A DNA stretch of 64,000 nt from Arcobacter sp. (lineage in GTDB: Bacteria; Campylobacterota; Campylobacteria; Campylobacterales; Arcobacteraceae). Below the pieces are notes generated by a model. That model saw only the letters and a list, made by a program, of their open reading frames with translations, made no database searches and was not told the origin of the DNA. Below are positions 1,728 through 5,239 of this stretch, in pieces. The position numbers and the translations under genes were made by a program. The DNA lies in the NCBI GenBank assembly GCA_020048055.1, contig JAIFNA010000003.1, positions 1 to 64,000 on the forward strand. The letters run 5' to 3'. Numbering within the stretch: position 1 is the first letter of the stretch; each line of letters begins with the position of its first letter.

Positions 1728-2450
1728 CTATATCCGCTCTTTAATTTGTTTAACTAGTGTTTGAAGCATAATTACATCAGTATAGATACCCAAGAAGTAT
1801 TTGAGTTTTCCACTATTTTTGTCAAGAATAGGACTAACCGTAACTTCAGTACAAATAAGCTGATTATTTTTTGCATAATTTCTAAGATTGACAGTAATAG
1901 GGATTTCGTTACGAAGTGATAGTCTAAGCTCTTCAAGAGACAATTGATCGTTGTCGTTTTTATGCATAAAACGACAATTCTTACCAACTACATCCTCAGC
2001 CAAATAACCAAATAAATTAGTGAATGAACCATTAATATAAATTATGGGATTATCATCTATATTTGGATTTGTTATTACAATAGCGTTTTTTGATTGGTCT
2101 AATATTTCAAATGAATAATCTTTAAATTCATAATTTGGTTCACTACTTACTTGTCTAAGGATATAAGACCCGCCATATAAATTTATAATTGATATTATTG
2201 GGACAGCTTTTCTAATAGAAGAAATCAAATTTCTTACACTCTTTTCATTGTATTCTTTGTTAAGATTTTCCCACACTTCAAAAAAAATATTCACATTCAA
2301 AACTGGTTTATTGATATTTTTAACCATTAATCCTAGTAATTTTTTTTGACTTGCAGTTAATTTTGCTTCTTGTCCATTTAGTAGTAAGTTTGAGGATTCG
2401 ATATGCCAATAACAATTTCGAGTTAATTTTACAATTGTTTTGTTTTCCAT
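1728..2450 (-). CDS. Winged-helix DNA-binding protein with C-terminal LOV-type PAS domain
   Basis: Probable blue-light or flavin-linked transcription factor of 240 aa. Residues about 5-100 match an OmpR-type winged helix (Trans_reg_C), ending in the wing signature NLYGGSYILR. Residues about 112-235 form a LOV/PAS domain with NPIIYINGSF and GKNCRFMH. The photoactive cysteine is C159 within the GxNCRF motif. Several flavin contacts differ from classical LOV domains: the Gln after NCRF(L) is H163, the Asn of the FWN motif is Thr, and the signalling Gln of the last strand is Y223. It begins 50 bp after the phytochrome-like gene, so the two are probably one operon. LOV identity rests on motif reading; it could be an ordinary PAS domain that kept the Cys by descent. 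Confidence 0.75.
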   Translation of the reverse strand: MENKTIVKLTRNCYWHIESSNLLLNGQEAKLTASQKKLLGLMVKNINKPVLNVNIFFEVWENLNKEYNEKSVRNLISSIRKAVPIISIINLYGGSYILRQVSSEPNYEFKDYSFEILDQSKNAIVITNPNIDDNPIIYINGSFTNLFGYLAEDVVGKNCRFMHKNDNDQLSLEELRLSLRNEIPITVNLRNYAKNNQLICTEVTVSPILDKNSGKLKYFLGIYTDVIMLQTLVKQIKERI

Positions 2451-2500: not shown

Positions 2501-4987
2501 TTAATCTCTTCCATTATCGTTTTTCAACAAAATCGACTTTAATTCTGAAGCTCTCACAAAATCACTAAAATTCAAAAAAAGATTAGACTCATATGCAATA
2601 GCAGATACGCTTGCACTACAAAATACATTAATTCCATTGAGCAAAATTGATTGATTTTTAATTTCTTCATTTATTTCTTCAGACATCTTTAAAACTTCAA
2701 TTGATGATAAATATGGAGCAATTATTGTGAATTCTTCACAGCCAGTACGCGTTACTACATCATCTTGATTTCTTATTTTAGATTTAAGAATATTTGCAAC
2801 CATTACTAAAATGGCATCACTAATATCATTTCCGTAAATTGTTTTAATGTTTGAAAAAGAATTTATCCCTACCGTAATGAGTGAAATTTCTGTTTTATTT
2901 TTCTTGGCAAGCTCAAACTGTAACAAACCGCATTCTCTAAAATATCTCTGGTTGTAAAGTTGTGTCAATGGATCGGTGGTTGATTGGATTCGTAACTTTT
3001 GATTTAAAATTTGCAAATCTTGTTCCGCATAATATTGTCTAGAAATATCACTAAATGCTACCGCTACACCTACAAGAATATTTTCATCATAAACTGGGGT
3101 AGCAATAATTTTTACAGGAAATTTATCCCCATTTGATTTGAAAAGCCAATCGTTCTGTTCATTTTTTATTTCGTATAAAATCGTGTTACAGATTATACAT
3201 TCGTGTTGGTCATAAACACCCTTATCTAATGGGTGATGATGAATAATCTTATGAATATTTTTTCCTAAAATTTCATCTTCTCTTAAAGATAATATTTCAA
3301 GTGCTACTGAATTTATAAAAAAACAATTCATGTTCAAATCAACACCATAAAAACCTTCTCCAATACTATTAAAAAGTTGTTCTCTTTCTAAAAATACTTT
3401 TTTTTCGATTGAATTTTGGATTAAAATTTGCTCTTGCATTTTTTGTTGTTTTTTTAATGATCTTGTTTCTTCATAACCAATAAAGTATTCATAAGAAATT
3501 TGAAGTTCTTTGGACAAAAGTTTTGCATTTTTAATTTCTACTTCAGAAAATGACAAAGATGTGCCAAATGTAATTTGATTCATATTTTCAAACGATGCCC
3601 TATTGTCTATAACTATTTGGTTATCTCTAAATTCAATACTTTCCTCATCTGCTATTTTTGTTTCACGAATCTCTTTGGCTCGTAAAAATAATAAATAAGA
3701 ATTATCTAATGCTTGAATCTTAACTGCTAAAAAACGATCAATAGATATATTTTGTAATTTTATTTCTGGATACTCTAGTCCAAGTTGATTGGTATAAAAT
3801 ATATCCTCATTAATATTTTTTGAAGCCAAGTTAACTAGTGATTTTAAGTCTTTGTCTGTAATATTTTTTCCTTCAAAATAGACAATATCTTCATACACCA
3901 ATATACAATAATCACAATTTACAATATTTATTAATTTGGATATATTTTGATTTATGGCTTGTGAAAATGTCAAATTGGCGCTAAGATTTAATGAATTAAA
4001 AAATAATTCCCTTCTAAGATTTAATTCAAATTCTTTTTTATATTTTACAATTTTTTCTTTTTGAGCTACTAGTAAGGAAAAAATTGAACTTAGTATTGAG
4101 TACGTTTCGTATGAAGTTAATGGAATTTTTTTAGATTCATAATGATGGCAAGCTACTACTCCCCATAATTTATCATCTACAACAATTGATATAGAAAGTG
4201 ATGATGTTACACCGATATTTTTTAAATATTCAATATGTATTGGTGGGACACTTTTAAAATAGCAACAACTCATATCTAATGGTTTTAATGTTAAAGGATT
4301 AAGAATTGGGTGAATATTTAGAGTATTAGCAAAGAGATCTTCGATAATTAAAAATTTATTTTTTATATACAAAGTCTTAGACTCTTGAGGAATATTGGGT
4401 GCTGTAACAAAATTGCCAATAATATTTTCTTTTGATACATTAAAAGATTGGGCTAAAACGATGTCGTTTCTTTCTTCATAAAATTTATATAACAAAACTC
4501 TATCAAATCCACTTATTTCTTGGACACTTTGGACAATAAAATTAATTAAACTATCAAAAGAATCTAATTCTTTACTTTTGTCTAATACTTTAGATACAAG
4601 TTGTTCTGATGCAACATCTTCTTTACTAAGCAAGTTAGACATCTCTAAAATTACATACTCACATTTAATATTGATGACGCAAAATAATTCTTTATTGTTA
4701 ACATTGCACTGTATAGTTGTAAAGTTTTTCTGAACTCTTTTTAACTCCCCAATATTGAAGGTTAATTCTTCAATAAACGATAAATTAAAACAATCATAGA
4801 TTGATTTTAATAATAAACTTTCTTTTGTAATTCCAATATAATCTTCTACTTTTTCACTGACTTGTAAAATTTTTAAATCGTCACAAGAAACAACTATCAA
4901 AGCACCAATAGGTTGAATCTGTGACAAAAAATCAATCGGCTCCACATCATATAATAAAGTTAATTCTGAGCCTGAATCCATATTCAT
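2501..4987 (-). CDS. Phytochrome-like sensor: PAS-GAF-PHY-PAS-degenerate GGDEF
   Basis: 828 aa from the ATG at 4987, chosen for the AAGAAAG-like site upstream and because homologous N-termini start near EPI; the open frame reaches an ATG at 5032 with no visible ribosome site. Domains in order: phytochrome N-terminal PAS (EPIDFLSQIQPIGAL), GAF (PIHIEYLKNIGV, WGVVACHHY, H251 and H281/H282), PHY with a tongue motif NRASFENM, a PAS domain, and a GGDEF-type domain. The biliverdin Cys before EPI is Tyr (Y13), QPHG is QPIG, and PxSDIP is replaced by APNIP (Asp to Asn, N198). The cyanobacterial GAF Cys is Ile. The GGDEF reads GCEEF and the metal-binding DxD region reads GIN, so cyclase activity is unlikely. 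It may bind bilin non-covalently, or be a light-insensitive descendant. No heme oxygenase gene is in the window. Confidence 0.85.
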   Translation of the reverse strand: MNMDSGSELTLLYDVEPIDFLSQIQPIGALIVVSCDDLKILQVSEKVEDYIGITKESLLLKSIYDCFNLSFIEELTFNIGELKRVQKNFTTIQCNVNNKELFCVINIKCEYVILEMSNLLSKEDVASEQLVSKVLDKSKELDSFDSLINFIVQSVQEISGFDRVLLYKFYEERNDIVLAQSFNVSKENIIGNFVTAPNIPQESKTLYIKNKFLIIEDLFANTLNIHPILNPLTLKPLDMSCCYFKSVPPIHIEYLKNIGVTSSLSISIVVDDKLWGVVACHHYESKKIPLTSYETYSILSSIFSLLVAQKEKIVKYKKEFELNLRRELFFNSLNLSANLTFSQAINQNISKLINIVNCDYCILVYEDIVYFEGKNITDKDLKSLVNLASKNINEDIFYTNQLGLEYPEIKLQNISIDRFLAVKIQALDNSYLLFLRAKEIRETKIADEESIEFRDNQIVIDNRASFENMNQITFGTSLSFSEVEIKNAKLLSKELQISYEYFIGYEETRSLKKQQKMQEQILIQNSIEKKVFLEREQLFNSIGEGFYGVDLNMNCFFINSVALEILSLREDEILGKNIHKIIHHHPLDKGVYDQHECIICNTILYEIKNEQNDWLFKSNGDKFPVKIIATPVYDENILVGVAVAFSDISRQYYAEQDLQILNQKLRIQSTTDPLTQLYNQRYFRECGLLQFELAKKNKTEISLITVGINSFSNIKTIYGNDISDAILVMVANILKSKIRNQDDVVTRTGCEEFTIIAPYLSSIEVLKMSEEINEEIKNQSILLNGINVFCSASVSAIAYESNLFLNFSDFVRASELKSILLKNDNGRD

Positions 4988-5239
4988 TCTATGCCACTTT
5001 CTTGGAAAGATATTTTTTAGACAATAAATCATCGATTTATAGATGGAATCTACTGCGTATTGTAAAATAATACCAAATAAAACAAAAACTATACAATTTG
5101 TACCAAATGAACCTATAAACTAGATTGTAACAAATCAAAAAGACATACTATAGCAGAATCGATATCTAACTTAAAATTTAATGCCAAGAACAATTTTTTT
5201 TTGGTATTATCAGCCAATATAAATCAAAAAAGGAAATTA

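Follow-up and report, generated by a model that had tools for sequence, protein, structure and literature searches.

The window, that is, the 64,000-nucleotide stretch of DNA analyzed here, encodes a protein, hereafter the pseudo-phytochrome, that belongs by fold to the phytochrome superfamily and, judged from its residues, fails the defining features of both a bacteriophytochrome photoreceptor and a PadC cyclase. It is probably, with ample room for other readings, a member of a Campylobacterota clade that is no longer a red/far-red photoreceptor and has been kept as a regulator acting through protein contact. This cautious preference draws on changes at 17 of 38 conserved columns, an intact frame, conservation of the GAF and PAS domains, bphO and a canonical BphP in the genome, a dead GGDEF domain, the recurrence in G100 of a winged-helix LOV gene beside a phytochrome operon and the precedent of the fungal protein FphB. 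Counted against it are the retention of about half of the pocket, the conservative nature of the change of R254 to Lys, the lack of enrichment of the losses in the pocket and tongue, the single sequence available and a partner proposed from gene order alone. The features discussed below are the following.

2501..5032 (-), pseudo-phytochrome gene, 843 aa (ORF, Pfam, AF2/Foldseek)
4949..4951 (-), Tyr28 codon, where DrBphP has its biliverdin Cys, Cys24 (alignment)
4388..4402 (-), APNIP (residues 211-215) for ASDIP, DrBphP Asp207 being Asn213 (alignment)
4349..4351 (-), Leu228 for Arg222, a B-ring propionate anchor (alignment; role, PMC11924222)
4259..4267 (-), C256-C257-Y, not an attachment site (alignment)
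4240..4255 (-), Lys260 (Arg254) and Pro263 (Ser257), changed B-ring propionate anchors (alignment; roles, PMC7164956)
3590..3660 (-), tongue, with WGG lost and PRxSF changed to NRASF, residues 477-481 (alignment)
3029..3397 (-), C-terminal PAS domain (546-668), where identity to the nearest relative, L021, is highest at 53% (Pfam, identity)
2528..2980 (-), GGDEF domain (685-835), catalytically dead by its residues (Gly722 at the metal Asp, Lys730 at the Asn, GCEEF at 764-768)
1728..2450 (-), 240-aa winged-helix (wHTH) and LOV-type PAS protein (PDB match, NCBIfam)

A phytochrome fold in an intact reading frame

The reading frame of the pseudo-phytochrome is intact and encodes the domain order PAS-GAF-PHY-PAS-GGDEF. 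Five Pfam domains, all exceeding the curated cut-offs, were identified: PAS_2 (31-131), GAF (162-309), PHY (352-510), PAS (549-663) and GGDEF (685-824). The earlier note, made from the DNA letters, had placed the start of the gene at 4987, which corresponds to the second Met (residue 16), is preceded by a weak AAGAAAG and is a plausible true start, although the ORF from the first ATG reaches 5032. The PAS-GAF-PHY core named in that note was recovered both by Pfam (PAS_2, GAF and PHY) and by matches of the predicted fold. By sequence, the PDB matches of the protein are phytochromes; the 50 Foldseek PDB matches listed for the AF2 model are all phytochromes or phytochrome chimeras, and the predicted fold matches the PAS-GAF-PHY structures of Agp1, Cph1 and DrBphP. 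The AF2 model built with two sequences was poor (pLDDT 53), and that built with five sequences (pLDDT 70) is adequate for the fold and inadequate for the pocket, where segments 210-214, 236-247 and 249-261 have a confidence below 50.

Changes in the bilin pocket and tongue

The pseudo-phytochrome was aligned first with 24 other phytochromes and later with 39, including DrBphP (L034) and PaBphP (L035); substitutions such as those at R222, R254, S257, D207 and H260 are numbered by DrBphP positions. The two central losses claimed by the earlier note were reproduced in both alignments: the biliverdin-binding Cys24 is Tyr28, and PASDIP reads TAPNIP, with Asp207 replaced by Asn213. Both the Cys and the PASDIP Asp are present in every other phytochrome in the two alignments. 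Three further observations of that note are real and carry less weight than it gave them. QPHG is indeed QPIG in the pseudo-phytochrome; this is no sign of loss, because L002, the canonical phytochrome encoded in this genome, shares QPIG, as does L012, and the clade mates read QRSG, QQSG or KDEG at this motif. Similarly, the Ile at the site of the plant Cys (Ile265) is not diagnostic, given that BphPs have I, V or M there. The adjacent Cys pair reported as C241/C242 exists (C256/C257 in full numbering); C257 is common to the clade, being found in L021, L072, L080 and L073, and C256 is private to the pseudo-phytochrome. This pair was considered as a new attachment site and rejected, since C257 occurs in relatives with the normal Cys and neither residue lies at an attachment position. 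At the two attachment sites, N-terminal and GAF, the alignment shows Tyr28 and Ile265 and no Cys, and no canonical relative in it carries the same substitutions.

The losses extend beyond those recognized earlier and include R222L, R254K, S257P, M267I, W451I, G453D, P465N and several others, among them a replacement of F203. Of these residues, Arg222 and Arg254 fix the chromophore's B-ring propionate in place (PMC11924222), and Ser257 hydrogen-bonds to it (PMC7164956); R222 and S257 are thus replaced anchors, and R254 is conservatively changed to Lys. Asp207 connects the chromophore with tongue Arg466 (PMC7164956); the W/G region of the tongue reads KIAD, and only R466, S468 and F469 are kept there. 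Conversely, about half of the pocket is intact, because H260, H290, Y176, Y263, I208-P209 and the S272/S274 pair are retained together with these three tongue residues. H260, which with H290 forms the GAF His pair, sits in PPIH just after the Lys260/Pro263 stretch, and Ser272 and Ser274 serve as anchors for the C-ring propionate (PMC7164956).

The earlier note had proposed searching the genome for heme oxygenase, and bphO was found beside a canonical BphP on contig C8 (L070 4687-8965), which encodes a PAS-histidine kinase, the bphO heme oxygenase and BphP (L002). The latter contains the QCEDEPI Cys, YPASDIP and an output of HD-GYP plus an apparently divergent GGDEF-like domain. Biliverdin can therefore be made in the cell, and the loss of the bilin site was not forced by missing biliverdin; lack of supply was accordingly discarded as its cause. 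As a separate observation, the histidine kinase-bphO-bphP operon is found again in genome G100 and partially in others.

Given this supply, the pseudo-phytochrome could be a noncovalent bilin photosensor: no thioether would form, biliverdin made by BphO would be kept in place by the two histidines and the C-ring propionate serines, and the spectrum or kinetics would be altered. The bphO gene in its own genome, the retention of H260, H290, Y176, Y263, S272 and S274, and the finding that an engineered BphP lacking both Cys retains biliverdin absorption (PMC5454922) are all compatible with such a sensor, which we nevertheless regard as rather unlikely: the Cys, R222, S257, D207, F203, W451, G453 and P465 are replaced, R254 is Lys, and such a set of substitutions is found in no relative. 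The earlier note had offered three readings, namely, noncovalent sensing of bilin, sensing of a different ligand and regulation by protein contact. Given the replacement of the Cys, R222, S257, D207 and three tongue residues (W, G and P), together with the conservative change of R254, weight shifts away from the first of these and toward the other two.

Relatives and the likely order of losses

A protein scan of the named genomes yielded a single full-length relative, L021, from a Sulfurimonas crateris MAG (CAMCYC010000017.1), which is 39% identical over 819 aa and is the nearest relative; L011, L072, L080 and L073 were added by searches in two families. In the phylogenetic tree, these five sequences and the pseudo-phytochrome form a clade with 100/99 support, and the pseudo-phytochrome is sister to L021 at 96/80. 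All other members retain the Cys and the PASDIP Asp, and among the relatives found there is no ortholog with the same losses, so that the pseudo-phytochrome is the single sequence of its type. Its end branch (0.95) is among the longest in the clade, next to that of L011 (1.02). Phytochrome-like genes are rare, occurring in 5 of 104 genomes of its own family and in 9 of the 228 from the family of Sulfurimonas, and class-wide searches detected PHY domains in 3 of 397 genomes. Within the clade, two further observations were made: L072, a 535-aa photosensory module without an output domain, lies ∼3 kb from a second phytochrome gene, L082 (G515, contig C2), and the reading frame of L073 (G476, contig C36) is broken by an in-frame stop.

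The output domains were compared with five canonical GGDEF proteins encoded by the genome of the pseudo-phytochrome. The GCEEF motif and the lost metal Asp, both read by the earlier note, were confirmed, with Gly722 in place of the Asp, and the guanine-contact Asn was found to be lost as well (Lys730); by these residues, the GGDEF domain is not catalytically competent. L021 also has GCEEF and has lost the guanine-contact Asn, with Glu at the position of the metal Asp where the pseudo-phytochrome has Gly. Because L021 shares GCEEF and yet keeps the Cys and PASDIP, GCEEF arose before the loss of the bilin site, and the GGDEF loss was inherited and is not tied to the bilin loss. By parsimony, output catalysis was likely lost first, followed by light sensing on the branch leading to the pseudo-phytochrome; L021 itself would, from its residues, be photoactive.

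Losses concentrate in conserved columns

Across 34 phytochromes outside the clade, 38 alignment columns are at least 95% conserved. The pseudo-phytochrome is changed at 17 of these, compared with 1 each in L021 and L072, 3 in L080, and 2 in L073 and 3 in L011, the last two being incomplete sequences; any one of the 34 references is changed at no more than 2. A first set of 22 references gave the same picture over 47 columns, with 20 changed in the pseudo-phytochrome, 1 in L021 and 0 to 5 in references left out one at a time. Even canonical pairs that are only 22 to 25% identical differ at 0 to 7 of the 47, whereas the pseudo-phytochrome differs from every other sequence at 20 to 23.

The comparison with L021 locates the excess. 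With L072, L080 and L073 as outgroups, changes in conserved columns unique to the pseudo-phytochrome and to L021 stand at 16:1, 15:1 and 15:0, respectively, against 71:54, 69:61 and 45:45 in the other columns (Fisher P = 0.0027, 0.0022 and 0.0001). Per-domain relative-rate tests were mostly not significant. Since the excess is confined to conserved columns, the loss appears directed at the constraint common to phytochromes; the pattern looks like a specific release from photochemistry and not like general decay. The losses were not enriched in a hand-made list of pocket and tongue positions (10 of 20, against 10 of 27 other conserved columns; P = 0.55); the L021-based column comparison was preferred to this test as the better posed.

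These data also bear on the possibility that the gene was recently inactivated and drifts without function. In favor of this are the loss of many conserved sites, an end branch that is one of the longest of the clade, and the small number of genomes in the family with phytochrome-like genes (see above). However, the frame is open over 843 codons at 27% GC, and the DNA is 44% diverged from that of L021; simulated neutral copies acquire stops after 1 to 2% divergence, and in 99% of cases after 2%. In addition, the excess change is confined to near-invariant columns, the others evolving at about the rate of L021. Only a very recent inactivation would fit, and that would not account for 17 losses, making this explanation very unlikely.

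The GAF domain, at 49% identity to L021, nearly matches the C-terminal PAS domain (53%), these being the two best-kept parts of the protein. Such conservation suggests that the GAF domain still functions, conceivably by responding to redox state or to a different ligand, with heme, a flavin or a quinone in a reshaped pocket or with C256/C257 as a thiol switch. The Cys pair and the precedent of CikA, which is phytochrome-like and unresponsive to bilin (PMC7766417), would suit a sensor of this kind. Against it, C257 is a clade feature present in Cys-bearing relatives, no ligand has positive support, and the pocket region of the AF2 model is of low confidence; we judge it improbable.

A neighboring gene for a wHTH-LOV regulator

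On the same strand and 3' of the pseudo-phytochrome gene, after a gap of 50 bp in which a scan detected no terminator-like site, lies the gene for the wHTH-LOV protein. The best PDB match of this protein is the blue-light receptor YtvA, and it retains the photoactive Cys (GKNCRFMH). Several flavin contacts are changed relative to YtvA, as FWN is ICT, GIQ is GIY and NCRFLQ is NCRFMH. Related genes are present in G100 and G071. The one in G100 (L051/L066 7670-8389) has Leu for the photoactive Cys (GKNLRFL) and lies directly upstream of the HK-bphO-bphP operon; by virtue of this adjacency, the pairing of a phytochrome with a wHTH-LOV gene recurs in two genomes. The gene order suggests that the pseudo-phytochrome and the wHTH-LOV protein may interact.

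Under the preferred reading, that of a protein-contact regulator, the photosensory module without photochemistry would serve as a dimerizing scaffold or as a sensor of a nonlight input, and the conserved C-terminal PAS domain and the dead GGDEF domain would relay the signal through protein contact. The recipient would most plausibly be the wHTH-LOV regulator encoded downstream or, alternatively, the canonical phytochrome present in the cell. A more specific and doubtful version is that the bilin pocket has become a sensor of a small ligand or of thiol redox state and controls, via the dead GGDEF domain, a wHTH-LOV protein that has itself lost flavin contacts. If so, the two proteins would be a pair of former photoreceptors made into a nonlight switch.

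Comparison with known systems

The pseudo-phytochrome shares with L021 the five-domain order, GCEEF and C257; in contrast, L021 retains the bilin Cys, PASDIP, R222, R254, S257, the tongue W and G and PRASF, and its gene adjoins a CheB-CheR fusion whereas that of the pseudo-phytochrome adjoins the LOV gene. With regard to this fusion gene, it adjoins both L021 (8527-11847) and L011 (L068), and the nearest copy in the genome of the pseudo-phytochrome is on another contig, C11. DrBphP, Agp1 and PaBphP have the same PAS-GAF-PHY fold with H260, H290, Y176 and Y263; compared with them, the pseudo-phytochrome is without the attachment Cys, the PASDIP Asp, the tongue motifs and a kinase, and its B-ring propionate anchors are changed. 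PadC (5llw) likewise couples a phytochrome sensor to a GGDEF output, but in the pseudo-phytochrome a PAS domain (549-663) lies between PHY and GGDEF in place of a direct coiled-coil link, and the GGDEF domain is without its catalytic residues (Asp to Gly, Asn to Lys, GCEEF). L002 has PAS-GAF-PHY and QPIG in common with the pseudo-phytochrome, and differs as a distant paralog (26% identity) with the Cys, YPASDIP, an output of HD-GYP plus a GGDEF-like domain, and an operon that also encodes a histidine kinase and BphO.

Photoinactive phytochromes are already known, and two were likened to the pseudo-phytochrome by description, not by sequence. FphB of Aspergillus fumigatus has Met at the Cys site, shows no red absorption and physically interacts with the photoactive FphA (PMC12607886). 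It is similarly a Cys-less second phytochrome alongside a canonical one, its photoinactivity being established by experiment (PMC12607886), and differs in being a fungal hybrid histidine kinase; by analogy, the pseudo-phytochrome would bind no bilin and absorb no red light. The cyanobacterial CikA, phytochrome-like and bilin-unresponsive (PMC7766417), is a clock input kinase. To these, the pseudo-phytochrome adds a variant with a matched sister that is predicted to be light competent. Natural phytochromes shown or thought to function without bilin chemistry are few, and the citable ones are fungal and cyanobacterial. Here, the putatively light-competent sister L021, the Cys-bearing clade mates and a canonical paralog with heme oxygenase are all available, a set that makes it possible to test directly what role the phytochrome fold plays without light and whether catalysis or light sensing was the first to be lost. 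Finally, ordinary Cys-bearing phytochromes are encoded on three IMG/VR contigs (L085, L086 and L087).
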